Position numbers and translations under genes: made by a program. A stretch of 64,000 nucleotides of DNA, from NCBI RefSeq assembly GCF_013282625.1, contig NZ_CP054020.1, positions 1,364,001 to 1,428,000 on the forward strand, read 5' to 3'. The notes beneath the pieces are model-generated. The model saw only the letters and a list, made by a program, of their open reading frames with translations, did no database searches and was not told the DNA's origin. How positions within the stretch are numbered: the stretch's first letter is position 1; each line of letters opens with the position of its first letter. This DNA comes from Thiomicrorhabdus xiamenensis. GTDB lineage: Bacteria; Pseudomonadota; Gammaproteobacteria; Thiomicrospirales; Thiomicrospiraceae. This document shows, piece by piece, positions 8,453 to 28,040 of the stretch.

Positions 8453-9199
8453 ATGCACTTAAACCGTCACAATTCCACAACTAAACGATCCGGCATCGTT
8501 CTATCCACTTTACTGGCGGCCACACTGGCGAGCCCGGTCATGGCTGACGGCCTTAGCGGATCCGGTGAACTCGGTTACAGCGATTCCGACGGAAACACTG
8601 TCAGCACTTCACTCTACGGGTCATTAAAAGCCAAATACACTCAGCCGGTGTACGAAGTAAAAACACTGATCGAAGCCAACTATAAGTCTGAAAATGATAT
8701 CCAGACCCAAGAGCGTTATTTGCTAGATGCACAGATGAACCGTTTCTACAACGAAGCACACAACTACTACAGCTTCGTGGGCGCACGTTTTGAAAAGAGT
8801 AAATTTGAAGGTGTTGATCTGGACGCTACCTATACGCTAGGTTTGGGTAAAGAGTTGTACAAGACAACCAGCACCCAGTTCCTTGTTGAATTGGGTGTGG
8901 GTTACCAGACCATTGATTACTCCGACGATTTCGGCAACGGATCTGAAGACCAGGTAATCGGTCGCTTTAAAGCCGAGGTCACCCATAAATTGACCCAATA
9001 CGCGGACTTCTCGCAGGATGTAACCGCTACCTTTGGTGAAGCCAACACGAAAACCGAAGCCAATACCGCCGTCAAAGTCAAAATGGCGGAGAAACTGCGT
9101 CTAAGCGTCGGTTACAAATACCGTCATAACTCCGATCCGGCCGACGGCGCTCTGAAACTGGATACCCAAACACTTGTCACGCTGGTATACGATTTCTAA
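8453..9199 (+). CDS. DUF481-family outer-membrane beta-barrel protein
   Basis: This 248-residue protein has a signal peptide (LSTLLAATLASPVMA, cleavage near residue 31). A body of alternating hydrophobic/polar strands follows, ending in LVTLVYDF; the terminal Phe is typical of outer-membrane barrels. The opening GSGELGYSDSDGNTVSTSLYG and overall length fit DUF481 (the family of E. coli YdiY). Function is unknown. It stands alone, and a GAGGCGGA/TCCGCCTC hairpin follows the stop. Confidence 0.8.
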   Translation: MHLNRHNSTTKRSGIVLSTLLAATLASPVMADGLSGSGELGYSDSDGNTVSTSLYGSLKAKYTQPVYEVKTLIEANYKSENDIQTQERYLLDAQMNRFYNEAHNYYSFVGARFEKSKFEGVDLDATYTLGLGKELYKTTSTQFLVELGVGYQTIDYSDDFGNGSEDQVIGRFKAEVTHKLTQYADFSQDVTATFGEANTKTEANTAVKVKMAEKLRLSVGYKYRHNSDPADGALKLDTQTLVTLVYDF

Positions 9200-16604: not shown

Positions 16605-16634
16605 AAAAAAAGCGCCCTGATCAGGCGCTTTTTT
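16605..16634 (+). terminator. rpmJ terminator, also left attachment site
   Basis: The hairpin AAAAAAGCGCC-ctgatca-GGCGCTTTTTT is a strong intrinsic terminator just after rpmJ. Its right half (16617-16634) is repeated exactly at 27934-27951, so island insertion leaves a working terminator. Confidence 0.9.
16617..16634 (+). repeat. attL core repeat (18 bp)
   Basis: CTGATCAGGCGCTTTTTT is identical to 27934-27951 in the same orientation. It is the descending arm of the rpmJ terminator. Confidence 0.85.
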
Positions 16635-16687
16635 AGTTTTATAACCTATTGAATTTAAACAGATTACTAACCTACATCTATTCTCCG

Positions 16688-16705
16688 TACCGTAAATAAT
16701 ACCGT
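16688..16705 (+). repeat. left integrase arm-like sites
   Basis: TACCGTAAA at 16688 and TACCGTTTT at 16700 are spaced 12 bp apart. They match the 12-bp-period TACCGTAAA array near the right end (27793-27825), so they are candidate integrase arm-binding sites. Confidence 0.5.
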
Positions 16706-16973
16706 TTTTTGTTTTATTTCGGCTGTTTTGCCCTCTCTACTTACTTCTAAATCCTGCTCATTACTCAGGGCGTGGGGGATATGTGTTACAAGATTCAAAA
16801 TCATTCCCTGCTAATAAACCGGCTTTACTAAATTAATATCTGTGCCAACTTGCACCGCTTATCTTAAATCTCAATACTTCTGAATTTGCCCGCCCCTCTC
16901 TACTCTTTTTATAAAAAACGGCATGGCACCTTTTGCCAAAAAGAAAACACGCGCGCAATTTTTGCCCTGTCAT

Positions 16974-17134
16974 TACTTTCTCTGGGATTCGGCACAAATT
17001 AAGCCCGACTACAACGGCCGTTAATTTCTCCGGCATCTGGCACAAATTAGTACCAACTATAACGACCGCTATTTTCTCTGGGATCTGGCAGAAATTACCA
17101 CCAACTATAACCGCCACTAATTTCTCTGGGTTCC
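16974..17134 (+). repeat. 48-bp tandem repeat array, left (three units)
   Basis: Units begin with GGCACAAATTA-type cores at 16991, 17039 and 17087, exactly 48 bp apart, followed by a diverged partial unit. The core GGCAC-AAATTA-GTGCC is a short inverted repeat, best preserved in the right-hand copies. Two more copies lie at 26423 and 26471 in the same orientation. Confidence 0.85.
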
Positions 17135-17339
17135 TGCTAGAAGTTTTCGGCATTCGTGAACATTAAACCGATAACCGGCACACGAATTATTTAGCCTTAA
17201 ATTTTAAGAAACTGACCGGTGGCGGCCTCCTTTGGTTGTGGATCTGGCACCACATGGGTACCCAAGGGCGGGGTCAAAAGTCTAGCGCCCTATAGACCTA
17301 GACCGTAGCCCCAGTCGCGTGTACTCGCACGGCAATTTT

Positions 17340-17563
17340 TATAGGGGGGGGTATCTAGTAATAGTGCTTATCAATCCTGTAATTCAATATCTCAGATTCA
17401 AAACGGCTCAATGTGGCCGGTCAAAAAATACCACGGCCTATATTTTTCAAGGGGGGGCTTTCTTCTTGGTTGCCAGAATAAAAAAGGTACTTCCTAAGGG
17501 TGTGCCCTGCACGGGGGATTAGACGCGCAGTTTATTTGCAGACGTAGAATTTTCTGAGGGGGG
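17340..17563 (+). repeat. three T-rich/G-tract motifs at 107-bp spacing
   Basis: Runs of 8, 7 and 6 G start at 17344, 17451 and 17558, each preceded by a T-run and two to three spacer bases (ATTTTTNNA then G6-8). The spacing is exactly 107 bp twice, while the sequence between motifs is not repeated. Confidence 0.55.
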
Positions 17564-17661
17564 TTCCGGTTTTAGGTGATGAGTACAGTCAGTGCTAAGG
17601 CACATGCAGCCCACTTCCTAGAACCAGAAATAAGGCAGTTTTTATAAGATAGTTATATTTT

Positions 17662-17757
17662 TTAACGGTACAAACGGTACAAGCGGTACGAGCCTTTATT
17701 CATAAGGGTTTCAGCCCGTGCCGTTTACGGTACAAAAACGGTACGAACGGTACAGGG
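17662..17757 (+). repeat. GGTAC iteron cluster, left copy
   Basis: Six GGTAC sites lie at 17667, 17676, 17685 (9-bp period) and 17729, 17740, 17749. The cluster is an inverted, diverged copy of the 114-bp repeats at 25189 and 26259. It is a candidate replication-initiator binding region. Confidence 0.65.
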
Positions 17758-17912
17758 CATTGCTTTTAGATAGTTAAGTATAGTATTTTGATTGCCGCCG
17801 CCTCCAGTTAAGGCCAATTAGACGCGGCAAAAGGCCAAGTTTGCGCGCGCGTTCTTCCTTTTGGAAAAACCAAACCGGCATTTTTAGAAATTTCTTTTAA
17901 GAGATAGCTAAA

Positions 17913-17951
17913 ATGGAAGCTTTTCAAATAAAGGCGTTAATTGATGACTAA
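17913..17951 (+). CDS. possible 12-codon leader peptide
   Basis: ATG at 17913 reads MEAFQIKALIDD and stops at 17949-17951, overlapping the start of the 121-aa gene at 17944. Such an overlap could couple or limit translation of the downstream gene. The ribosome site is weak (AAGAGA). Confidence 0.2.
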   Translation: MEAFQIKALIDD

Positions 17952-18309
17952 TGAAGAATTACTAGCACCTGCATCTTATGAAGAGGAAATAGCGGCACTT
18001 GAATTTCATGAAGAAAATGATTCTTGCTATCGAATTACTTCAAACGGTACTGACTTACCATTCAAAGTATCTTCTATAGATGGAGGAGAACCTGAGCGTG
18101 AAAATCTAATATGGTGGCTTGATGCTTATAAAACATTCAAAGAACTTATAAAAGAGAGCGGATACGACACTCATAATGTCAATAATGTTTGCCTTAAACA
18201 CACAAAAACCCGCTCTTTTAAGGTTTTCTATGCTTCTGAGACTGTTAGCCTAACTGCTGAAAACACACTTTCTGAAAGAAAACAGTACATTTCAGTAACA
18301 AAAATTTAA
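17944..18309 (+). CDS. unknown island protein (121 aa), only rightward gene
   Basis: I do not recognise this protein. It is acidic at the N terminus (NEELLAPASYEEEIAALEFHEEND) and soluble, with no signal or membrane segment. It has a central EPERENLIWWLDAYKTFKELI helix and a C-terminal beta-rich part. It looks more A/T-rich than the neighbouring replication genes and faces the opposite way, which fits later-acquired cargo. A TTG three bases upstream is an alternative start. A strong terminator follows. Confidence 0.55.
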   Translation: MTNEELLAPASYEEEIAALEFHEENDSCYRITSNGTDLPFKVSSIDGGEPERENLIWWLDAYKTFKELIKESGYDTHNVNNVCLKHTKTRSFKVFYASETVSLTAENTLSERKQYISVTKI

Positions 18310-18321
18310 ATTTATTATCAC

Positions 18322-18347
18322 AACGCCCATATATCGGGCGTTTTTTT
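18322..18347 (+). terminator. intrinsic terminator after the 121-aa gene
   Basis: The hairpin ACGCCC-atatatc-GGGCGT is followed by seven T on the plus strand, 13 bp after the stop. Confidence 0.85.
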
Positions 18348-18359
18348 ATAAAGACCAAC

Positions 18360-20093
18360 TTACTCACTTTCTAGGATGGTGGATTTCACCGCATAACTCG
18401 GAACCCGTTTACCGGTTTCCGTTTCTGGGGTTAGGTGGGTGTTGCGGTCTGGCTGATGCTTTAGGTAGCCATGCTTTTTCAGCGTGTTTAAAGCCAGCTT
18501 CCAACTGATCCCCTTGCAGACCTCTTTCTTAAAGACTTCCTGCAGAAAGTAATAGGTGTACTCAATACCCGTTTCATTTTCGCCGCCACGATAACCGGCA
18601 CGGTCTCCAATGTTCGGTTTATGGTCATCGTTCACGCGGTTAAGGTTACTAAAGCGGCTCTCAGCGTAACGTTCGATAAAGCCGCGTACTTGGGCAATGG
18701 CCTGCATTTCTTCTTGCGAGTGGGTAGAACTTTGCAGATTACTAACCCAACTATCAAAACACGCCTTAGCCGCGTTCATGGCTTCCATTTGTTGCCAACC
18801 GGTTAAGCCGTAGACCGTTGCCAGTTCGCCCCCTGCCGCTACCATAGCAAAGCGGTTAATCACCCGTTTAACTTGGCTGTTTGCCTCCTTTGGGGTGTAG
18901 AGTTCAATAAACTTAGCGTAGGCGGTTCTGAACGCTTTCAGGCTTTCCGCTTCGTTCTCCGTGAACTTCTCTAAAAAACGAATGCCAACGGCACCGTAGT
19001 ATTTATTGGTCTGCTCTTGCAGGGTTTCAGCCTGTAACCGGCTATCGGTATAACCATCAATCAGGCAATCAAACACACCATATTCACCCGTCACGGCTTC
19101 AATATCGACTAGCCGCACCTCATGCCCAGCACGGCTTGTATTCCCCGTTTCAGCCAAGGCACTTTTTAAATCAATTTCACCGGTAGAGATAAACAACAAC
19201 CGCCATTGCTTCGGGTGTGCATCATTGTGCCGTTGCTTGGCTTGGCCGTTAGCCAACATGTAAACCGTTTGCCCTATCTCTCTTGGGTTCATCTCCCCCA
19301 TTTCATCCAATAAAAGCAAGCTGTCGTTATGCTGGTAGGAAGTCATTTCTAGCCCGTTGGACGTGGCGCGCCATGTCTTTTTGCGCTCATGGCTTCCCCA
19401 TACCGAACCGGCCGCATAAAGGGTAATAGTCTTGCCCTTAGATGATTCACCGCGAAAATGGAAACCGCCACCCTCAATACCCAACTTGGATAACAAAGGT
19501 GCGGTAAAGGCGGCACTGATAGCAAAGGCAATACGGCTATTACCGGCAGCGAATTTTGCTACATTCTTTTGCCACTGCTCAATAGTTCCGGCTGTTTGAA
19601 AACCTAACTGGCTCGGGAAATCAGTTTGATATAACACCTGTTGGCCGTCTGTATCGCCAATGGTTTGCGTAGGCAATACGTAACACTTTTCAAACCAGCC
19701 GATACGCTCTACACAAATACTAATACCCGCTCCGTGGCATGATTGAATGTATTGAGCCAGTAGGTTCTTGGCCTTGGGGCTGTTGCTGATACTCAGCCCC
19801 ATACTAAGCAAGGTACTATGCAGCGCATCCCCGCGACCGGCAAGCATCGCCATTGGCATTACCCAGCGCTTTTTACGCTTCTCCATGTCCTGAAATTCAA
19901 GCACGCGCCCCCAGTTTTCCCCGTTACGGTCTCTGGTACTCGCGGTTACTTCCAACTTAGAACAAATCCAAACAGGGTTGGCGTTGTCATTGTATGGGTC
20001 TAGGTAGTTAAGGCCATTCTCACCAAAACTAAACCCCTCGGGCATGGTTGGTTGCTGAATCGGTACAATTTTATCTGCTAGGCTCTCACTCAT
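18360..20093 (-). CDS. DUF927-domain ATPase/helicase-like protein of the island replication module
   Basis: This is a 577-residue protein. A Walker A-like FRGESSKGKTITLYAAGSVWG motif (about residue 230) and Walker B LLLLDEMGEM (about residue 278) sit in the DUF927 domain. GGEN, RAGHEVRLVDI and a C-terminal winged-helix-like region follow. DUF927 proteins are mobile-element NTPases, often beside or fused to primases, and probably act as replicative helicases. Its start overlaps the end of the Toprim primase gene by 8 bp, so the two are coupled. Together they replace the single alpha protein of P4. Confidence 0.85.
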   Translation of the reverse strand: MSESLADKIVPIQQPTMPEGFSFGENGLNYLDPYNDNANPVWICSKLEVTASTRDRNGENWGRVLEFQDMEKRKKRWVMPMAMLAGRGDALHSTLLSMGLSISNSPKAKNLLAQYIQSCHGAGISICVERIGWFEKCYVLPTQTIGDTDGQQVLYQTDFPSQLGFQTAGTIEQWQKNVAKFAAGNSRIAFAISAAFTAPLLSKLGIEGGGFHFRGESSKGKTITLYAAGSVWGSHERKKTWRATSNGLEMTSYQHNDSLLLLDEMGEMNPREIGQTVYMLANGQAKQRHNDAHPKQWRLLFISTGEIDLKSALAETGNTSRAGHEVRLVDIEAVTGEYGVFDCLIDGYTDSRLQAETLQEQTNKYYGAVGIRFLEKFTENEAESLKAFRTAYAKFIELYTPKEANSQVKRVINRFAMVAAGGELATVYGLTGWQQMEAMNAAKACFDSWVSNLQSSTHSQEEMQAIAQVRGFIERYAESRFSNLNRVNDDHKPNIGDRAGYRGGENETGIEYTYYFLQEVFKKEVCKGISWKLALNTLKKHGYLKHQPDRNTHLTPETETGKRVPSYAVKSTILESE

Positions 20094-21147
20094 AGTTCAC
20101 CCCCGTATTTTGCATGGGTGATGTATCGAGCAAGTACCGGTCGTTAAAATCCGAGCCGCTTTCATGCGGCGCAAACTCCGGCCACACTATAGCCCCGTCT
20201 ACAGCCTTAGCCGCCTTTTGACCATAGACAATACCTTTATTCACTTTGGCCGGTGTACCGTCTTTATTAAAGCGGTCATTATCGGCCGCAATGATTAACC
20301 GGCTGACTGGGTAACGGATCTTAAAAGCACGGGCTACCGGTTTAAGGTTGGCGGCATCAAAGGCCACCACTATTGCGGATTGCGTATCATAGTGGGCGGC
20401 ATAGGTAATGCCGGTGGCGATACCCTCACACACCACAATAGATGCGCTATCCGGATGAAAGCGTAATACAAAGAAACTGCCGGTCTTTTGCGAGCCTTTT
20501 AAAAAACGCTTGTCGCTGTCTGGGTTAATAAACTGCACGCTAACCAATTTAAGCGCCGTGCGTAAATCTGTGTCTTTTGGGTGCGCTTTTGGCTGGGTGT
20601 TAAAGCGGTATACCGGTACCATGACCGCCCGCCCTAACTGCAATGGCAGATTCAAGCCGTGTAGCATGTCGGTTACGCCCTTCTGCACAAAATATTCGTT
20701 TCTCGGGTTGGCAATCATGGCGCGCTGTACAAGGTCTTTTGCCTTGCTCTGTGCCGCTAAATACCCCTGTTCACGCTCTTGGGCTTCTTGTTGTTCGGCT
20801 TGCTTGCGTTGGTTTGCACGCTTGCGTTGTTCGGCTTTGAGTCGCTTCTTATCGGCCTCATTCATGGGGGCGAACTTATACCCGTTTTCGATAGCCTCAT
20901 GGATTAGGCTTCCAATGGTTACGCCCCCACTGGCACGGATACTACGCCATGTACTAATAAAGGCGTTCTTATCGTAATTTGATGCGGTGGCGCTCCATGC
21001 TTGCATCACTTCTTTGGCATCCTCTCCAAATTCGGATTTGGCCGCCATCAGCAGGCGCGCCCAGTCTTCACGGGCTTGCTCTGCCGAGATGTAATTAAGC
21101 ATCTGCTCTAAAATGCTTAAATCAATGTCTTGGTGTTGTTTGTTCAT
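20086..21147 (-). CDS. Toprim-domain primase with PriCT_2 domain
   Basis: This is a 353-residue protein. The N-terminal 80 residues (ILEQMLNYISAEQAREDWARLLMAAKSEFG ... SIRASGGVTIGSLIHEA) fit PriCT_2. A Lys/Arg/Gln-rich linker follows. The C-terminal Toprim domain shows VVCEGIATGITYAA (catalytic Glu), VVAFDAANL, IIAADND (the DxD pair) and GSDFNDRYLL. It should prime replication of the excised element. It overlaps the DUF927 gene by 8 bp and lies 8 bp after the 112-aa gene upstream. No zinc-finger domain is visible. Confidence 0.87.
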   Translation of the reverse strand: MNKQHQDIDLSILEQMLNYISAEQAREDWARLLMAAKSEFGEDAKEVMQAWSATASNYDKNAFISTWRSIRASGGVTIGSLIHEAIENGYKFAPMNEADKKRLKAEQRKRANQRKQAEQQEAQEREQGYLAAQSKAKDLVQRAMIANPRNEYFVQKGVTDMLHGLNLPLQLGRAVMVPVYRFNTQPKAHPKDTDLRTALKLVSVQFINPDSDKRFLKGSQKTGSFFVLRFHPDSASIVVCEGIATGITYAAHYDTQSAIVVAFDAANLKPVARAFKIRYPVSRLIIAADNDRFNKDGTPAKVNKGIVYGQKAAKAVDGAIVWPEFAPHESGSDFNDRYLLDTSPMQNTGVNYE

Positions 21148-21155
21148 ACTCTTAC

Positions 21156-21494
21156 CTATGGATTCTTCTCTAGGGTTTTGCGTATTGCGGCTAGGTGCGC
21201 TCTGGCTTCATCCGGCGGCGTTGGCTTGGCTTTCCGAATAGGTTGGCCCGCCTTAACGCCGTAATAGTGACGGTAGGTTTTACCAAGTGCCCTGCATTTA
21301 ATCACTAGGCGCTGTGCTACCGGATTGAGCACATAGAAAAAATGATAGGTTTTGCCGGTATCGTCTTTTGCTCGAAAGTTATAAATCACTCCGTTAAAGG
21401 CAATAACCGGCATTTTCACTATCTTTAAGCCTGCAAAGGTCGTGGCAAAAGCCTGTTTAAAATGGCGCTTGATTTCGTCATTGTCTTGGCTCAT
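21156..21494 (-). CDS. unknown small basic protein (112 aa)
   Basis: Not recognised. It is rich in Lys/Arg with a beta-rich core (KIVKMPVIAFNGVIYNFRAKDDTGKTYHFFYVLN) and a helical basic tail. The pattern suggests nucleic-acid binding, but no known motif is present. It lies between the unknown genes and the primase, 8 bp from the primase start, so it belongs to the same leftward transcript. Confidence 0.65.
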   Translation of the reverse strand: MSQDNDEIKRHFKQAFATTFAGLKIVKMPVIAFNGVIYNFRAKDDTGKTYHFFYVLNPVAQRLVIKCRALGKTYRHYYGVKAGQPIRKAKPTPPDEARAHLAAIRKTLEKNP

Positions 21495-21501
21495 GAAAGA
21501 A

Positions 21502-21567
21502 TCAGTCCTTTCCTGCCATCAATGCAGGGTATGCCCGTACTTCTTCATCAATGTCTATAACTTCCAT
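21502..21567 (-). CDS. possible 21-aa microprotein
   Basis: The ATG at 21567 opens a 21-codon frame reading MEVIDIDEEVRAYPALMAGKD, filling the gap between two island genes. AGAGGTG lies just upstream at ribosome-site distance. The peptide is acidic. It is plausible only because it fits the tight packing and has a ribosome site. Confidence 0.3.
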   Translation of the reverse strand: MEVIDIDEEVRAYPALMAGKD

Positions 21568-21577
21568 TGCGACACCT

Positions 21578-21970
21578 CTACGGATCAGACTGCTTAGATT
21601 CGTTTTCCGAATCCTTTAGGTAGTCTTTACCGCCGTGCTTAAAGTGTTGCTCAATGCCGAAATTCGCTTGTGCATTGATGTACTGGATTTCGCTTAATAG
21701 ATCCATTTCTTCCTGTAACCAGATTGCAAAGCATTCGACCTCATTCTTTTCTAGTGGATCATCTTCATAATGCAGACCGGCACGGAAAAGCTTTGCCATC
21801 AATTGAATGTTCATCGGTCGCGTTTCCATTTCATTACTGGAATAGCTTTGCAGTTCATCCAGTGCTTTTAACTGCTCTGCATTCACTATCGGCCTATTGA
21901 AATCAATAGCGAAATTACGCGAGTAATCAGGGTTACGTAGGTTTTTTAGGATATGGGCTAAAGAATGCAT
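21578..21970 (-). CDS. unknown island protein (130 aa)
   Basis: Not recognised. It is a soluble, mostly helical, acidic protein (for example ALDELQSYSSNEMETRP, ECFAIWLQEEMDLLSEIQYINAQ) with no signal peptide, membrane segment or catalytic motif. Its ATG overlaps the stop of the preceding gene (TAATG), which shows translational coupling. Confidence 0.65.
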   Translation of the reverse strand: MHSLAHILKNLRNPDYSRNFAIDFNRPIVNAEQLKALDELQSYSSNEMETRPMNIQLMAKLFRAGLHYEDDPLEKNEVECFAIWLQEEMDLLSEIQYINAQANFGIEQHFKHGGKDYLKDSENESKQSDP

Positions 21971-22602
21971 TACTCACCCCCTTTTTCAGCTTGTGTAGAG
22001 TTCATAACCGGCATGGCGTTTAACAGCTCTTCCATGTCGTTTACGGTCTCTTTGAGAGTGAATAAGGTAGATAGGCAGGTACCAACATCAAACGCGCTTT
22101 TTAGCTGTTCAAGGTCATCGACAAAGGCTTGCGTTTCATTGGCAATAGCGGTCACTACCTTGGCGTTCTCCTGCAATATGGCTTGCACCTCGATAACGCC
22201 GGTCATTTGGTTAAAGGTCTGTTCTGCTTCGTCTGTATCTGGAATAACTAACGGCTCAGGGGGTGTAAATACCGGCGGTACATTTAACCCTTTCGAGGTG
22301 ATACTCTCTCGTACTTGGGGGTGTGCGTATGAATTTCTAATTAACCCTTCCAAAGTCGAGAAGAACCCAACCAAAAAGCCCTTTTCAGCATCGTTTAAGG
22401 TGTCTTTATCCGTAAAGGCATAGGCAATGCCCTGTAAATTACCGCCGGTATAGTCACTCTCACACAAATAACGCACGTAATCATAGACACCGGCCTTACC
22501 TACTTTGTTAGCTTGGCAATAGTCTAGGCATGGATCTATGTTTAATTGCAGCTTGCCGTTTTTATAGCAGTTCGAGAAAAAAGGTCTGTTTGCACTGTTC
22601 AT
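21970..22602 (-). CDS. unknown island protein (210 aa)
   Basis: Not recognised. The frame is open upstream, but the ATG at 22602 overlaps the previous stop as TAATG and gives MNSANRPFFSNCYKNGKLQ. The N-terminal half contains several Cys (CYKN, CLDYCQA, RYLCESD). A Pro-rich linker (VPPVFTPPEPLVIPDTDEAE) leads to a long helical C terminus (residues ~130-205) that may form a coiled coil. No enzyme motif is seen. Confidence 0.6.
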   Translation of the reverse strand: MNSANRPFFSNCYKNGKLQLNIDPCLDYCQANKVGKAGVYDYVRYLCESDYTGGNLQGIAYAFTDKDTLNDAEKGFLVGFFSTLEGLIRNSYAHPQVRESITSKGLNVPPVFTPPEPLVIPDTDEAEQTFNQMTGVIEVQAILQENAKVVTAIANETQAFVDDLEQLKSAFDVGTCLSTLFTLKETVNDMEELLNAMPVMNSTQAEKGGE

Positions 22603-22880
22603 TACTTGGTACCTCCCATGGTTGGAAGTAATACCGACATTTCCGGCACGCCTTGGCTGGCTAACCAAAGGGCTAGGCTGTCGAGCGTTTCAAAGTATCG
22701 AGCGGATTTGGTAACAGGGTTTTGAATGGTTGCCAGTTGGCCGCTTTCGGTTTCAATGGATAAATTCCAGACACCGGCAAGCGAAACGGCAATAAAGCGT
22801 TTAATAAAGCTGTTTTCAGGCAGATTAATCGAAAAAGAGAATTGCCCCACAGTGGCGGCATTTTGAGAAGTATTAGGCAT
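22602..22880 (-). CDS. unknown island protein (92 aa)
   Basis: Not recognised. It is small and beta-rich (VGQFSFSINLPENSFIKRFIAVSLAGVWNLSIETESG). ATGs at 22895 and 22880 are both open. I chose 22880 because a strong GGAGGG ribosome site precedes it and lies inside the longer frame. It overlaps the stop of the gene before and the start of the gene after. Confidence 0.6.
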   Translation of the reverse strand: MPNTSQNAATVGQFSFSINLPENSFIKRFIAVSLAGVWNLSIETESGQLATIQNPVTKSARYFETLDSLALWLASQGVPEMSVLLPTMGGTK

Positions 22881-23226
22881 AGGATTGCCCTCCATATAGT
22901 TTAGTCAGTGTTTGCCCACCTGCGTTAATTACAGGTGGGCGGGTCTCAACTACCGCTATATGACGGCTGGACTTATTCCCCGTAAAGGGTCTTGTATTAA
23001 GTCCTATCAACCCGCCCGCATTTTTAATAATACGGAAACGGTTTTCCATGCCGCTAGATAGCATTTTAGATACAGCTATCCATAGATTTTGGGCATAAAA
23101 AAAGCACGGTTTAAAGGCTGTGCGGGTGGCCTCATATAGTTTAGTAGTGCCGCCAATGTTAGCGGCTCCGGCTAATAGATGCAAGCGCATTGAGTTAAAT
23201 GGGGGCATTAAGGCAAACTTAGGCAT
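22873..23226 (-). CDS. unknown basic island protein (117 aa)
   Basis: Not recognised with confidence. The protein is strongly basic with patches such as KPCFFYAQNLWIAVSKMLSSGMENRFRI and a tail HIAVVETRPPVINAGGQTLTKLYGG. Similar small basic proteins (Ash/Icd-like, cell-division inhibitors) are common near alpA in P4-type islands, but that is only a positional analogy. The ATG at 23226 has GGAGGT six bases upstream and overlaps the preceding gene by 8 bp. Confidence 0.55.
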   Translation of the reverse strand: MPKFALMPPFNSMRLHLLAGAANIGGTTKLYEATRTAFKPCFFYAQNLWIAVSKMLSSGMENRFRIIKNAGGLIGLNTRPFTGNKSSRHIAVVETRPPVINAGGQTLTKLYGGQSYA

Positions 23227-23572
23227 GTTTACCTCCACGGGCTTGACGGTATAAATCTAGCGCTTCTAGGGCGCATTCTTTTTGGTGCCCTGCCAGTGTG
23301 TAGTAACCGGCGTTAGAATTGCTCCCGTCTTGGTCAATGCTGCTCATACGGCCGGTATCAATCACCCAACCGGCTTTTCTCAGTTTGAGAACAATATCAG
23401 GGGAATTAGCCACACCGGCAATCTCGTCCAGTTCTTGACGGGTGACAGGTCGCTGTACCAACACTTTAAAGAATCGGTATTCTTTTGCTGTGCGTATCAC
23501 GGGGCATTTGCTAGAATGAAAAAGCTCTGCTTGAGCCGTGGCATTGTCTTGGGTGTTGCGGCTCGCTTCCAT
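23219..23572 (-). CDS. winged-helix-like DNA-binding protein of the island
   Basis: This 117-residue protein has a central helix-turn-helix-like stretch (YRFFKVLVQRPVTRQELDEIAGVANSPDIVLKLRKAGWVIDTGRM) that fits a winged-helix fold. The frame is open upstream, but the ATG at 23572 overlaps the alpA stop (TAATG) with GAGGC before it. It is a probable regulator acting with AlpA on island genes. Similarity was judged by eye only. Confidence 0.6.
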   Translation of the reverse strand: MEASRNTQDNATAQAELFHSSKCPVIRTAKEYRFFKVLVQRPVTRQELDEIAGVANSPDIVLKLRKAGWVIDTGRMSSIDQDGSNSNAGYYTLAGHQKECALEALDLYRQARGGKHA

Positions 23573-23775
23573 TAGGCTGCCTCCCCACGAGTTGCTAACC
23601 ACTCGTTTACCTCTGCCACACTCCATACAGAACATTGCAAAGAAAGCTTTTTAGGCTTAGGGAATCCTTGGGTTTTAATCCATCGGTACACGGTTGACGG
23701 GTTTACACCCCCAAGCATTTCACGGCACATATCGGCCATGCGAATCTTGGGGTCTATGGTATTGGATTGGGTCAT
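23572..23775 (-). CDS. alpA: AlpA-family transcriptional regulator
   Basis: This 67-residue MerR-like helix-turn-helix protein contains RMADMCREMLGGVNPSTVYRWIKTQGFPKPKKLS and VWSVAEVNEWLATRG, the standard AlpA pattern. In P4-like elements and CP4-57, AlpA-type proteins control integrase/excisionase or late genes. Its ATG directly abuts a 58-nt three-stem RNA structure that contains the AGGTGG ribosome site, so translation is probably controlled. It heads a run of overlapping genes down to the DUF927 ATPase. Confidence 0.9.
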   Translation of the reverse strand: MTQSNTIDPKIRMADMCREMLGGVNPSTVYRWIKTQGFPKPKKLSLQCSVWSVAEVNEWLATRGEAA

Positions 23776-23833
23776 ATTGCCACCTGTTTTAATTGGTTAA
23801 AACGTAGCGCAATGCGTTGCGCTTGGTGGCAAT
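23776..23833 (-). promoter_or_regulatory. three-stem RNA junction / nested palindrome at the alpA start
   Basis: In the alpA transcript a 9-bp closing stem (ATTGCCACC with GGTGGCAAT) encloses two perfect hairpins. One is GCGCAA-CGCA-TTGCGC and the other GTTTTAA-CCAA-TTAAAAC. Junction linkers are only 2, 3 and 1 nt. The 3' strand of the closing stem with the preceding A forms AGGTGG, the only ribosome site, and ends directly at the ATG. The fold should block translation unless opened. The same DNA could also be a set of protein operators. Confidence 0.65.
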
Positions 23834-23878
23834 GTAAGAAAGTGGTTTAAGGAATGTTACTAAATGGCGGTAATGTCT

Positions 23879-25027
23879 TTATTGACTGCTTGATGGCGGT
23901 ATTGGCTCTTTGGTGTACCTCTTGAGCCGTTTTAAGAATGCTTCTTTATCTATCTCTTTTCCATCAAGCAGAATAGCGTTTTGTTTTTCATTTAAGCTTA
24001 GATAGCTTGGTAGGTTTATTTTGAAGTACTCCCATGCTTCTACTCTCTGAGGAAGTCGGCCGTTATCACTTAAAAACGCGGCAAACACCGTATTCATTGC
24101 ATTGAATAAGTCGTCTTTTTTGCGCGGTGGACTGCTAAATACATTAGTTGTATTTTGCTTTGGCGTGTTTACTTTCATTCTGTGTTCAATTCCTAGGTAC
24201 TCTTGTTCGAAGCACATTAATTCACGCCTTGAAATATAAAATCTGTCCGCTTCAATCAATCTTATAAAGTAGTCAGTATCAAGTTCATGCTGATAAATTA
24301 ATTCAACATTACATAACTCTGTGTCTGATTCGTACTGTAGTTCATCTGGCAATTCATCGCACGGCAGATTAACAATTACTCCTTTAATAGGTTTTAAAAC
24401 GTCATTGTTAAGGTCAGTAAATTTAGAAATCTTTAAACGCTTTAGGTACTCTATATCACCATGTAAGACTTTAAGAATCCAATTAGGGGCGAACCACTCA
24501 AACACTGGGAAAATAAGCCTTTCAGGTTTTCCTTTAAGCCCAATCTCATCAATTAGTGGTTCATAGTTGGTATCATCGTGTTTTTCTTGTTCTTTATCCC
24601 AAAGCAATACAGGCGGATAGTGAAAACGGTACTTTTTTACAATGGGGGCGGTTAGTCGGTAAGTCTCAAGTAAGTACTTTGTAAGATACTCATTCCCATC
24701 TTTTACAGACTCGTAATTTTCATTAGAGTGCTTCTTATGGTATTCCAGTTGTTTCTTTAAGCCATTATATAGACGCCTAGCTACTGCTGGATATTTGGAC
24801 TCATAATAGGGTTCACCAATAACCCTAATTTCATATCCTTGCTGTTTTGCTAAACGCTCATTCCATAGGTCGGTATTTCCCCTTGTAAATGGCAAAGAGA
24901 GTAAACCAAAATTTAAAAGCCCTCTAGCCCCCAAATCTAAAACACTTTCACGGGTTACCATTGGATCTCTTTGCTGGAAAATCTCTACCACTTCTTCTAT
25001 GTGGTAATAGGGCTTCAAATACGCCAT
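23879..25027 (-). CDS. unknown island protein (382 aa)
   Basis: Not recognised. It is soluble and charged, with no signal or membrane segment. The N-terminal 40 residues (YYHIEEVVEIFQQRDPMVTRESVLDLGARGLLNFG) look like a helix-turn-helix region. The C-terminal 80 residues (LFNAMNTVFAAFLSDNGRLPQRVEAWEYFK ... ILLDGKEIDKEAFLKRLKRYTKE) could also bind DNA. It lies between alpA and the iteron repeats and reads toward alpA. A regulatory or defence role is possible but not shown. Confidence 0.7.
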   Translation of the reverse strand: MAYLKPYYHIEEVVEIFQQRDPMVTRESVLDLGARGLLNFGLLSLPFTRGNTDLWNERLAKQQGYEIRVIGEPYYESKYPAVARRLYNGLKKQLEYHKKHSNENYESVKDGNEYLTKYLLETYRLTAPIVKKYRFHYPPVLLWDKEQEKHDDTNYEPLIDEIGLKGKPERLIFPVFEWFAPNWILKVLHGDIEYLKRLKISKFTDLNNDVLKPIKGVIVNLPCDELPDELQYESDTELCNVELIYQHELDTDYFIRLIEADRFYISRRELMCFEQEYLGIEHRMKVNTPKQNTTNVFSSPPRKKDDLFNAMNTVFAAFLSDNGRLPQRVEAWEYFKINLPSYLSLNEKQNAILLDGKEIDKEAFLKRLKRYTKEPIPPSSSQ

Positions 25028-25073
25028 TAGTCAAACCCTCCCGAGCTTGCTATCCACTGGAATAAGTAAGGGC

Positions 25074-25127
25074 GGCACGGTCAGGGGATGGATATTCCCT
25101 TTTCGCCCCGTCGGGCTAGACCGTGCC
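25074..25127 (+). ncRNA. second three-stem structured element (possible regulatory RNA)
   Basis: A perfect 9-bp closing stem (GGCACGGTC with GACCGTGCC) encloses two inner hairpins. One is AGGGGA-tggata-TTCCCT (one G-U pair, so the plus-strand RNA folds better) and the other GCCC-CGTC-GGGC. It lies 47 bp from the start of the 382-aa gene, on its upstream side. No open frame overlaps it. It may be a plus-strand small RNA or a leader element. Confidence 0.4.
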
Positions 25128-25188
25128 AGTGCTGTTCTATTCGGCTAATCCGCTGTTTTACAGTGCATTAACGCTTGTTTTTCATTTC

Positions 25189-25302
25189 TCTGTACCGTTC
25201 GTACCGTTTTGAAAACAAAAACGGTACAGGCTCTAGGCCGCGTGAATAAAGGCTCGTACCGTCCGTACCGCTTGTACCGTTGGTTTTTACGTATGTCATA
25301 AG
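25189..25302 (+). repeat. 114-bp direct repeat with GGTAC iterons, copy 1
   Basis: It holds GTACC sites at 25192, 25201, 25256, 25265 and 25274 (9-bp periods) and an inverted GGTAC at 25223. It also has a 10-bp inverted repeat GTACCGTTTT/AAAACGGTAC. It matches 26259-26372 with five mismatches. In P4 the cis replication region is also two ~120-bp iteron-bearing direct repeats. Confidence 0.9.
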
Positions 25303-25303
25303 C

Positions 25304-25579
25304 CTATGAAATAATTTTTATCTCTGAATAAAGTGGAATACTCATGGAAAGGTTATACTTTGACTTTTCCCAATCTGTTGGGATGCAGTCTTCTGGATTT
25401 GGTATTTCTACTATTACAGGGAATACTTGATTTAGCAGGGTTTCGATATTAGTGTTATCCCCATAAAGCGCCCCCCAAAACGCCACAATTTGATCATCTG
25501 CAGTTTTACATTTAAGCCACGTTACTTCTTTGTAATCTGAAAAGTGATGTTCAATTTTTTCAATAAGCTTTATTTCCAT
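25304..25579 (-). CDS. unknown small protein (91 aa) in the toxin-antitoxin cassette
   Basis: Not recognised. It is acidic with N-terminal MEIKLIEKIEHHFSDYKEVTWLKCKTADDQIVAFWGALYG, so a small alpha/beta domain is likely. It starts 15 bp after the antitoxin stop on the same strand and lies within the segment bounded by the 114-bp repeats. It may be a third component or a passenger of the module. Confidence 0.6.
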   Translation of the reverse strand: MEIKLIEKIEHHFSDYKEVTWLKCKTADDQIVAFWGALYGDNTNIETLLNQVFPVIVEIPNPEDCIPTDWEKSKYNLSMSIPLYSEIKIIS

Positions 25580-25594
25580 AAGCGACCTTTTGCT

Positions 25595-25894
25595 TTATGC
25601 CGTTGCCATATGCGGCTGTAAACGGAACTCTAGCCCGAGTGCTTGGATTACTTTAAACACGGTTTCAAAACGGGGGTGCTTGCCCTCCCCAAACGATTTA
25701 TAAAGGCTTTCACGCCCTAGGCCGGTCTGCTTGCTGATTTCTGCCATACCTTGAGAGCGCGCCGCAATGCCTAGCGCTTTAATAAATAGCTGGGGGTCGT
25801 TTTCTTCTAAACAGGCTTCTAGGTAGCTTTTAACGTCCTCAGCGGTGGTTAGGTATTCCGCCGGATCATAAGGCACCGAATTTAAGTTACTCAT
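25595..25894 (-). CDS. HigA-like antitoxin (HI1420-type addiction module antidote)
   Basis: This 99-residue protein has a helix-turn-helix domain (ALGIAARSQGMAEISKQTGLGRESLYKSFGEGKHPRFETVFKVIQALGLEFRL) typical of the antidote of the HI1419/HI1420 type. Its start overlaps the toxin gene by 8 bp, giving the toxin-first order of HigBA-like systems. It probably represses its own operon through the palindromes at 26200 and 26231. Confidence 0.9.
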   Translation of the reverse strand: MSNLNSVPYDPAEYLTTAEDVKSYLEACLEENDPQLFIKALGIAARSQGMAEISKQTGLGRESLYKSFGEGKHPRFETVFKVIQALGLEFRLQPHMATA

Positions 25895-26189
25895 CTAACC
25901 AACTCCTTACTTCTTTAATGTCTTTCTTTTGGTTGGGCTTATCGCCTACCAGTATTAACAAAACGATTTGAGCGCCCTCTTTGGTGTAATAAACGCGCCA
26001 CCCTTTACCTACATCAATTCTTAATTCAAACAGGTTTTCACTTAGTTGCTTATGGTCTCCTGCGTTGCCCATTGCTAGACGGGTTAACCGTGCCGTAATT
26101 CTGCTTTTGGCCTGTTTATCTTTGATTTGGTTAAAGCGTTCATCAAACGGGCTTTCACCATTCCTAAGGTATTTTCGGATTTCAATCAT
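25887..26189 (-). CDS. RelE/HigB-superfamily toxin (HI1419-type)
   Basis: This 100-residue protein of the RelE-fold killer group has ARLTRLAMGNAGDHKQLSENLFELRIDVGKGWRVYYTKEGAQIVLLILVGDKPNQKKDIKEV. Family members cleave mRNA at the ribosome. It is first in the operon, with the antitoxin overlapping its stop. The module probably stabilises the island. Confidence 0.9.
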   Translation of the reverse strand: MIEIRKYLRNGESPFDERFNQIKDKQAKSRITARLTRLAMGNAGDHKQLSENLFELRIDVGKGWRVYYTKEGAQIVLLILVGDKPNQKKDIKEVRSWLDE

Positions 26190-26199
26190 AGTTAGAATT

Positions 26200-26246
26200 G
26201 TATCTTATAAGATACGAATTAAGCAAAAATGTATTCACTTAGATAC
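26200..26246 (-). promoter_or_regulatory. toxin-antitoxin operators
   Basis: The perfect 16-bp palindrome GTATCTTATAAGATAC (26200-26215) lies 11 bp upstream of the toxin start. A diverged copy, GTATTCACTTAGATAC, lies at 26231-26246. They are 31 bp apart, about three helical turns, as expected for cooperative autorepression. Confidence 0.65.
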
Positions 26247-26258
26247 AAAATAGGGGTT

Positions 26259-26372
26259 TCTGTACCGTTCGTACCGTTTTGAAAACAAAAACGGTACAGG
26301 CTCTAGGCCGCATGAATAAAGGCTAGTACCGTCCGTACCGCTTGTACCGTTAATTTTTACGCATGTCATAAG
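26259..26372 (+). repeat. 114-bp direct repeat with GGTAC iterons, copy 2
   Basis: It is 109/114 identical to 25189-25302 in the same orientation, offset 1070 bp. The two copies bracket the toxin, antitoxin and 91-aa gene. Confidence 0.9.
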
Positions 26373-26402
26373 GTTGTACAAAATAACAGGGGTGAAAAGT
26401 GG

Positions 26403-26514
26403 CGCTATTTTCTGTTGGATTCGGCACAAATTAATGCCAACTATAAGCGCCACGATTTTCTCTCGGAATCGGCACAAATTAGTGCCAACTATAAGCGCTA
26501 CTAATCTGTGGGCG
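26403..26514 (+). repeat. 48-bp repeat array, right (two units)
   Basis: GGCACAAATTA cores lie at 26423 and 26471, 48 bp apart, including the perfect inverted repeat GGCAC-AAATTA-GTGCC. It has the same orientation as the left array and ends just after the integrase stop. Confidence 0.85.
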
Positions 26515-26516
26515 TG

Positions 26517-27767
26517 CTATCCCGCATTGGCGTTATTGCGGTTAATCGGGATAACGTCACCACCGTTTTTGAGTGCATCTAAATGGTCTGCCCATGCCTG
26601 CATCATTTTGGTTCGGTCTTCTATCCATTCCGCATTATTGTAGGCGGCTCGAATCCGGTCTTTATCCATGTGGGCTAATTGCGCCTCGATAACGTCAGGC
26701 GAAAACTTTAATTCATTGAGTATGGTGCTAGCAGCGTGCCGCCAACCGTGCGGACTCATTAAGCCTTTGCCTACTGGCTCCCCTGTTTCTGGGTTCTTAG
26801 TTTTGTTAATGGCGCATGAAAGCGTACTAACGGCAAGCGGCTTATCCTTACCCGCTGTGGACGTGGTGAAAATGTAGGTCTTATCCCCGTTTAGCTCTCT
26901 CATGGCATTGAGGATATTAAGCGCCTGCTTTGATAACGGTACTTTATGGGGGCGGTCTGTTTTCATTTCCCCGTCTTGGTAGGTCATCATCTTGGTTTCA
27001 AAGTCGATGTTTTGCCATTTAAGTTCTCGTATGTTCTTTGGGCGCATAAAGACATAAGGCATAAACTGCAAAGCCATTTTTACCGGATAACTACCGTGAT
27101 ATTGTTCAAAGCCTTTTAGCAGTACCTTGAGTGTGGCCGGATCGGTTGTGGACGGCATACTTTTTCTAGGCATTGCCTTGGCATTGGTCGGGAATAGATC
27201 CGTTAGCCCTTGCGCGGGGTTGGTGCTGATAATCTGCAAAGCAATAAGCCGGTTAAACACTTCCTTAGTTGCACCTATGCACTTTCTAAGGGTTTCTCTC
27301 TTACCGATGTCATACAGGTTTTTGAAGTGGTTATATAAGTGAATGGTGGTAATGGTTTCAACCGGTACCCTGTCCAGTACAGGGAATAGGTGAATTTCCA
27401 TTAATTCGCGCTTCTTGCGCTTGGTTACTTCTCTATTGGGTGAATCTTTGAGTATATCCAGTGCATAGGCGCTGAATGGCTTAAAGCGTTCGCCTTTGAT
27501 GCGTTTAAACTCAACTCTAGGATCAAGCCCTTCTGCTACAAACGCCCTTGCCTGTTCGTGTAGGTCTCGGGCTTTCTTCAGTGGAATATCTGGGTATTGA
27601 CCAATTGTAAGCGTGTAGCGATGTCCGAACAGAGAGAAGTCATAACGCCATGTTTTGGTGTTGCTTGGCTTGATAAGCAGATACAGGCCGCCGCCGTCTG
27701 CTTCTTTATACTGTTTCTCTTTTGGCTTTAGTGCCTGTATTTTTCGGTCTGTAAGTTTCCGTTTCAT
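26517..27767 (-). CDS. int: P4-type tyrosine integrase
   Basis: This is a 416-residue protein. The N-terminal DUF4102-type domain is KLTDRKIQALKPKEKQYKEADGGGLYLLI ... TWRYDFSLFGHRYTLTIGQYP. The core-binding and catalytic domains carry Arg in MRPKNIRELKW, the HGWRH box (SPHGWRHAASTIL) and the catalytic Tyr in RAAYNNAEW. The frame is open upstream, but that extension encodes a repeat-derived RYHLRYRLRY stretch, so I chose the ATG at 27767. It should catalyse integration at the rpmJ terminator. Confidence 0.95.
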   Translation of the reverse strand: MKRKLTDRKIQALKPKEKQYKEADGGGLYLLIKPSNTKTWRYDFSLFGHRYTLTIGQYPDIPLKKARDLHEQARAFVAEGLDPRVEFKRIKGERFKPFSAYALDILKDSPNREVTKRKKRELMEIHLFPVLDRVPVETITTIHLYNHFKNLYDIGKRETLRKCIGATKEVFNRLIALQIISTNPAQGLTDLFPTNAKAMPRKSMPSTTDPATLKVLLKGFEQYHGSYPVKMALQFMPYVFMRPKNIRELKWQNIDFETKMMTYQDGEMKTDRPHKVPLSKQALNILNAMRELNGDKTYIFTTSTAGKDKPLAVSTLSCAINKTKNPETGEPVGKGLMSPHGWRHAASTILNELKFSPDVIEAQLAHMDKDRIRAAYNNAEWIEDRTKMMQAWADHLDALKNGGDVIPINRNNANAG

Positions 27768-27792
27768 GAAAAAAGCGCTCAAAATTGTTCCG

Positions 27793-27827
27793 TACCGTAA
27801 ACGATACCGTAAATGGTACCGTAAATG
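27793..27827 (+). repeat. right integrase arm-like sites
   Basis: Three TACCGTAAA(C/T)G units at 27793, 27805 and 27817 have an exact 12-bp period and lie 26 bp upstream of the integrase start. Two related units lie near the left end. Confidence 0.65.
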
Positions 27828-27843
27828 TAGTGCAATTGAGAAA

Positions 27844-27909
27844 AACACTATGCAACACTAAACCACAAAAAAGCCCCAATTAACGGGGCTTAGAGCAACA
27901 CTATGCAAC
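27844..27909. repeat. 13-bp direct repeats around a hairpin near attR
   Basis: AACACTATGCAAC occurs at 27844-27856 and 27897-27909, 53 bp apart, between the arm-like sites and the att core. They flank the GCCCC hairpin and are possible additional integrase or accessory-factor sites. Confidence 0.5.
27865..27890 (-). terminator. leftward terminator shielding the integrase
   Basis: The hairpin GCCCC-aattaac-GGGGC is followed on the minus strand by six T. It lies upstream of int and should stop host transcription arriving from the cheV side. Confidence 0.75.
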
Positions 27910-27933
27910 TTGTTAAAATTTGAAAAATACCCT

Positions 27934-27951
27934 CTGATCAGGCGCTTTTTT
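27934..27951 (+). repeat. attR core repeat (18 bp)
   Basis: CTGATCAGGCGCTTTTTT is identical to attL at 16617-16634. The upstream half of the terminator stem is not repeated here. Confidence 0.85.
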
Positions 27952-28040
27952 TGTATTCGGAGTTTAAAAATTCCCACAAAATATTTCAGGAAAAATCTTC
28001 TACTTACATCACCCTATTCAAATACGAGCAAACACAACAC

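Follow-up and report, generated by a model that had tools for sequence, protein, structure and literature searches.

The 58 nucleotides that precede the alpA start codon in an integrative island of Thiomicrorhabdus xiamenensis are a real RNA element, which is conserved in structure and absent from Rfam release 15. In it, an outer stem encloses two hairpins in a three-way junction, and it very probably hides the alpA ribosome site. With slightly less than even confidence, we read this leader as a cis-acting lock on alpA translation, probably directed against read-through transcription. Coordinates refer to the window, i.e. the whole stretch of 64,000 nucleotides that was analysed.

The alpA leader and its fold

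Because alpA is on the minus strand, the leader element is read as the reverse complement of positions 23776-23833; all of its pairs are perfect. It consists of the following parts:

23776-23833, minus strand: alpA three-way-junction leader (sequence, fold z -5.84, recurrence in 11/52 family alpA leaders)
23833-23825 / 23784-23776, minus strand: outer stem, 9 bp (sequence)
23823-23806, minus strand: hairpin 1, 7 bp (AGCGCAA-CGCA-TTGCGCT)
23803-23786, minus strand: hairpin 2, 7 bp (GTTTTAA-CCAA-TTAAAAC)
23825-23833, minus strand: 5' arm of the outer stem, ATTGCCACC, complementary to the alpA ribosome site
23776-23785, minus strand: ribosome-site region, AGGTGGCAAT, with the 3' arm GGTGGCAAT within it
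23572-23775, minus strand: alpA, 67 aa, excisionase/regulator family (PF05930, 34.8 bits; phrog_66 'excisionase and transcriptional regulator')

The description of these 58 nt in the earlier note as a nested junction of three perfect stems is confirmed by sequence and fold, and its 9-bp outer stem enclosing two hairpins is borne out, with the 3' arm at 23784-23776 and the alpA ATG directly after it on the minus strand. Of the hairpins of 6 and 7 bp given there, the latter stands, and the former has 7 bp when its closing A-U pair is included. As this pair of hairpin 1 had been omitted, the linkers had been given as 2, 3 and 1 nt; they are counted here as 1, 2 and 1, namely A after the 5' arm, AC between the hairpins and A before the 3' arm. 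The ribosome site AGGTGG had been placed in the outer stem, which holds for its GGTGG part, the first A being an unpaired linker.

The minimum free energy (MFE) of the minus-strand leader is -25.2 kcal/mol, compared to a mean of -11.06 kcal/mol (sd 2.42) for 200 shuffled sequences (z -5.84), none of which was as low. Perfect inverted repeats fold on either strand, so the choice of strand cannot be made from the fold by itself: the plus strand is nearly as stable, with -24.6 kcal/mol, a z of -3.51 and 1 of 200 shuffles as low. The minus strand was chosen on the basis of the position before alpA and of the relatives.

Recurrence of the junction among AlpA leaders

A DNA similarity search of 23219-25400 against phages, plasmids and E. 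coli genomes gave no match, so that no close copies were at hand for a simple alignment, and an AlpA peptide-pattern search returned none in genome contigs and three viral-contig loci, which matched over 12-24 residues only and were left out. AlpA (PF05930) genes were collected at three levels: the host family, i.e. Thiomicrorhabdus and its kin, with 54 matches spread over 29 of 60 genomes; the class (71 of 274 genomes); and the phylum (at least 199 of 398 genomes). For class and phylum, samples of 90 leader loci each (30 + 60) were taken from among the matches listed. L062 and L240, which are without a start codon, and near-duplicates were excluded; de-duplication left 190 leaders for the arm and loose-junction tests and 221 for the strict-junction and TAAT tests.

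For a strict junction, the MFE structure had to contain an outer helix, 7 pairs or longer, over the ribosome-site zone, which enclosed two hairpins and no more, each with 4 pairs or more; the last 22 nt of the leader were held fixed in the shuffles. In the samples taken, the three-way junction is a feature of the host family. Strict junctions were found in 11 of 52 non-redundant family alpA leaders, where 1.73 were expected, and, among the matches listed, in 2 of 83 leaders of the class sample (3.12 expected) and 1 of 86 of the phylum sample (3.83 expected). At other ORF starts of the family loci, they numbered 2 in 69. The strict members are L007 (the window), L008, L010, L016, L018, L023, L024, L077, L230, L241 and L242; L011, whose second hairpin has 3 pairs, fails the strict test and is included in the 12 junction loci considered below. 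Loose three-way junctions are common and not enriched (28/190 AlpA leaders vs 23.2 expected), as one would expect of a chance fold in an AT-rich spacer, an explanation that is scarcely credible for the window in view of its z of -5.84 and of the family count under the strict test. The idea that every AlpA leader forms a three-way junction was dropped, given the loose count and the near-confinement of strict junctions to the family.

The junction loci keep the order of arm, short A-rich linker, hairpin, hairpin, arm and start codon, and the letters of all parts vary; AAG is common after the 5' arm, and otherwise little sequence is shared. A core conserved in sequence and structure for ligand binding, as is characteristic of riboswitches, was not found among the members. 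As a sequence alignment of the members left the helices out of register, pairs were counted in a hand-set register. In this register, pairing is seen in 79 of 84 cells of the outer stem and in all cells of hairpin 1 (48 of 48) and hairpin 2 (47 of 47); 25, 26 and 25 of the cells, respectively, differ on both sides, and 0 of 2000 column shuffles reach the observed pairing, a count that overstates covariation because the members were selected for folding; the strict test is the unbiased one. Counted from the inner end, the third pair is flipped (A-U vs U-A) between the window and L008, its nearest relative. Together with the recurrence in the family, these compensating changes support the earlier claim of an RNA structure over the alpA ribosome site.

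Junction members fall in four separate places of the family AlpA tree, which is a tree without support values. The genome of the window contains four AlpA genes, with the junction in three of the leaders (L007, L018, L077) and not in the fourth (L086). The sequences of the three are unrelated and their shape is the same, which argues against one shared protein operator. It is very improbable that the inverted repeats serve as DNA operators, for AlpA or another regulator, with the RNA fold as a by-product: AlpA-family proteins do bind DNA, perfect inverted repeats fold on either strand and the repeats lie at the predicted promoter described below, but repeat sequences are unrelated also among the other relatives, nesting, order and pairing with the ribosome site are kept despite changed letters, and G-U pairs occur among the junction members.

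Hiding of the ribosome site is also found, as a weaker tendency, in AlpA leaders at large. In the set of 190, leaders in which a 5' arm can pair with the ribosome-site region are more numerous than expected (44 at p<=0.05, 16 at p<=0.01), low MFE values are frequent (66/190 at p<=0.05), and the mean ribosome-site pairing is slightly raised (0.61 vs 0.57; 28/190 leaders at p<=0.05). For the alpA of E. coli K-12, two of the three lengths that were folded show a small stem of the CTCTC/GAGAG type. In phage P4, whose vis is an AlpA-type excisionase by annotation, the stretch compared was:

complement of 9031-9088, phage P4 (L251): stretch before vis

Here, as in the window, an upstream segment (GCTACC) can pair with the ribosome site (GGTAGC) around an inner hairpin; in contrast to the window, there is no three-way junction, and the segment from -80 to +12 folds otherwise, with -18.2 kcal/mol.

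Island setting, upstream transcription and the proposed lock

The leader lies in an island with the following further features:

16606-27957: island of 11.3 kb with flanking repeats at 16606-16640 and 27923-27957 (repeat and empty site)
27871-27891, minus strand: terminator-like hairpin inside the cheV-side end, facing transcription from cheV
26517-27848, minus strand: tyrosine integrase gene (int) of the island (PF00589, PF13356)
25060-25126, minus strand: int-alpA RNA (RF02996; 44.6 bits, gathering score 35.8)
23879-25027, minus strand: co-oriented upstream gene, 382 aa, no family match
23831-23860, minus strand: weak promoter-like site GTAACA-18-TACATT, predicted only, with +1 near 23824
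22930-23016, minus strand: sRNA-Xcc1 (RF02221; 55.3 bits, gathering score 53), downstream of alpA

Read along the minus strand, the order is int, a toxin-antitoxin pair, int-alpA RNA, the 382-aa gene, alpA, a small HTH gene and sRNA-Xcc1, followed by several unknown genes and then two replication genes; the succession of an alpA-like gene, a regulatory stretch and a primase resembles phage P4 (vis, cI, ..., alpha). An empty site was found in Thiomicrorhabdus sp. 6S3-12 (L333), where cheV and dinG are adjacent with one copy of the repeat; the DinG proteins of this strain and the window are 98% identical. The cheV terminator hairpin has -16.9 kcal/mol at the empty site and -5.4 kcal/mol at the cheV-side junction, half of the terminator having been replaced on insertion of the island.

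Promoters were scored with a sigma-70 matrix, by which GTAACA-18-TACATT is the best promoter-like site within 200 nt upstream of alpA. Its -10-like box stops 6 nt short of the arm's inner end, which puts the predicted start at about the end of the 5' arm; with such a start, only read-through RNA could form the stem. A -10-like box that ends 6-7 nt short of the arm's inner end is a top-four site in 5 of the 12 junction loci, ranking first in the window and L023; in the other 7, the promoter-like site at this distance is outside the top four. The promoter hexamers of the junction loci are poor, the -11 A is often missing, and a stricter scan returned no promoter-like site on the minus strand here. 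The tetramer TAAT immediately in front of the arm was chosen after inspection of the family and class leaders: the 8 nt that follow it are the most complementary to the ribosome-site region of all 234 tetramers in the class set and rank 2 of 143 in the family set. In the phylum set the signal failed, with rank 159 of 241 among the matches listed, and TAAT before the arm was therefore not retained as a rule for AlpA genes in general.

A lock against read-through predicts co-oriented upstream neighbours. All 12 junction loci have such a gene no more than 350 nt upstream, its end 103-224 nt from alpA, as compared to 21 of 41 other family alpA genes (Fisher p 0.0017). In the wider set, it is present for 33 of the 42 leaders whose arm is significant and for 58 of the 102 without an arm (p 0.014), a test that omitted 46 of the 190 leaders (arm p 0.05-0.2, or short flank). 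In the window, the likely source of read-through into alpA is the 382-aa gene, and a scan of the interval between it and the stem returned no terminator-like site. Of the 12 junction loci, 4 have a terminator between the upstream gene and alpA, as do 9 of 15 other co-oriented loci, which is too small a difference to carry weight; this comparison used 15 of 22 other co-oriented loci, those with longer gaps.

The junction loci share two properties with fold-back locks, in that longer transcripts would include a 5' arm able to pair with the ribosome site and the co-oriented gene puts all 12 under putative outside transcription. In RNA that reads in from the 382-aa gene or from beyond it, the ribosome site would be paired with the 5' arm, with the two inner hairpins drawing the outer arms together, and alpA would stay untranslated. 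The weak promoter of alpA itself would start RNA near the A just after the 5' arm. As the arm would occupy -10 to +1 of this promoter, alpA's own transcripts would lack it, leaving the ribosome site open and alpA translated, and read-through RNA alone would be silenced. Stray transcription of the resident island would then make no excisionase, and deliberate activation of the promoter would. The predicted energies are consistent with this: opening the ribosome site costs 13.7 kcal/mol with the 5' arm and 4.4 kcal/mol without it in the window, and the mean over the 12 loci falls from 9.3 to 3.4 kcal/mol on removal of the arm; the change is from 8.2 to 5.4 kcal/mol in L010, and L230 is barely affected (5.9 vs 5.6 kcal/mol).

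We hold the fold-back lock tentatively. The significant fold, the excess of strict junctions in the family, the pairs kept in all three helices of the fold-selected members with both sides changed, the spread of the members over four places of the AlpA tree with three of them in one genome, the drop in opening cost and the co-oriented genes speak for it, as do the -10-like boxes in the register of the arm and the TAAT ranks in class and family. Against it stand the poor hexamers, the outcome of the stricter promoter scan, the 7 loci without a top-four site in the register of the arm and the TAAT result in the phylum; furthermore, the site is partly closed even after removal of the arm in the window, L010 and L230, the model has no need of the inner hairpins, and 41 of 53 family alpA genes are without the junction, 21 of which have a co-oriented gene within 350 nt.

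The inner hairpins, which are kept beside the outer stem and which a bare lock would not need, fit better with a regulated RNA switch, in which transcription would start further upstream, the junction would be present in every alpA transcript, and a ligand, a protein, an RNA or temperature would open it. The common AAG after the 5' arm points in the same direction. Small-molecule aptamers normally have a conserved core sequence, and sensing of RNA, a protein or translation, as proposed in the earlier note, finds no counterpart in an aptamer-like core beyond this AAG. With no conserved core sequence among the members, no Rfam family over the leader and no more than chance pairing with C4, sRNA-Xcc1 or int-alpA RNA (see below), a switch is unlikely, and we favour the fold-back lock over a sensor. 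AlpA-driven excision in Shewanella oneidensis is cold-responsive, which would suit a switch; the response is ascribed there to H-NS, by which alpA is repressed (PMC5148205).

The same study reports excision in 33+/-8% of Shewanella cells upon overproduction of AlpA alone (PMC5148205), from which it follows that low dosage matters. The fold and the hidden ribosome site could accordingly be a constant damper, keeping alpA translation low in every transcript and limiting spontaneous excision with neither a switch nor read-through logic; we consider this quite improbable, as it accounts neither for the link with co-oriented upstream genes nor for the adjacency of the arm and a -10-like box.

Repressors and H-NS are the usual explanation for how the excision genes of islands stay silent within DNA that is transcribed. 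The fold-back lock, if true, would be a repressor-free answer, extending a principle of transposase genes to satellite-type islands, and together with the terminator at the island edge it would form two layers against outside transcription. The leader would also represent a structure-only RNA class missing from Rfam, which is hard to detect by sequence because shape alone is kept. It is possible, if somewhat less likely than not, that AlpA-type islands from P4 to that of the window widely carry a translational read-through lock selected for shape and free in sequence, and that the Thiomicrorhabdus lineage has developed it into the three-way junction shared by several unrelated islands, a second layer behind a terminator that would prevent excision of a resident island upon transcription from neighbouring genes.

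Known leader locks and other RNAs of the island

A fold-back lock of the IS10/Tn10 transposase was reportedly described by Davis, Simons and Kleckner in 1985, a paper whose title names two layers of protection against outside transcription for Tn10. Under the favoured model, the window resembles it in that the ribosome site of a recombination gene is paired with a 5' arm of outside transcripts; it differs in that the gene is the excisionase of an integrative island, the structure a three-way junction and not a plain hairpin, and the effect predicted. The transposase leader of IS200 reportedly (Beuzon, in 1999) has a structure that hides the ribosome site. The same is described for the tnp leader of ISPpu9 (PMC8450116). 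Both resemble the window in the hiding of a mobile-element gene's ribosome site by its leader, with a different architecture; ISPpu9 adds two small RNAs acting on the leader, and no such partner was found for the alpA leader. Terminators upstream of transposase genes, in turn, block expression of insertion sequences located in a transcribed region (PMC2965389). By this comparison, transposase-leader locks are known, and what appears new is the three-way-junction variant at an excisionase gene; no published alpA leader structure was found in the literature, with older P4, IS10 and IS200 work scarcely covered.

The int-alpA RNA belongs to the same kind of island and also has a stem enclosing two hairpins. 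In contrast to the leader, it is a separate RNA some 1.3 kb upstream and has conserved loops. Neither RF02996 nor any other Rfam family matched 23776-23833 up to an E-value of 10, and no Rfam match lies over the leader in the 12 junction loci at gathering scores.

C4 antisense RNA (RF01695) and sRNA-Xcc1 are RNA regulators of P1/P4-type elements. One or the other is found 756-850 nt after the alpA start in the window, L008, L230, L016 and L024, and L077 has a below-threshold sRNA-Xcc1/C4 match at about 470 nt; the same place after the alpA start suggests that sRNA-Xcc1 and C4 are counterparts in related islands. Base pairing between the leader and C4, sRNA-Xcc1 or int-alpA RNA was tested as an idea and dropped, as it is not above that of shuffled leaders: the five cognate pairs of C4 or sRNA-Xcc1 with a leader gave p values of 1.000, 0.145, 0.755, 0.150 and 0.960, and the pairing of the window leader with sRNA-Xcc1 is weaker than all 200 shuffles. 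The proposal that the leader senses RNA is not supported for the other RNAs of the island, with which it pairs no better than chance.

The sRNA-Xcc1 stretch is overlapped by a 121-aa ORF (22873-23238) without a Pfam or PHROGs match, whose look we take to be Icd/Ash-like. Further upstream, the toxin-antitoxin pair (25595-26189; a dnstrm_HI1420 antidote and a weak ParE/Gp49-like match) is bracketed by a 114-bp direct repeat (96%; 25189-25302 and 26259-26372), which gives the impression of an insertion or duplication of the pair between int and the remainder of the island. Within the duplicated 114 bp, upstream of int-alpA RNA, lies a 19-nt imperfect inverted repeat (79%; 25213-25231 / 25270-25288). 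Arrays of a 48-nt repeat are found near the island end (16977-17130, 3.2 copies) and just downstream of int (26407-26498, 1.9 copies).
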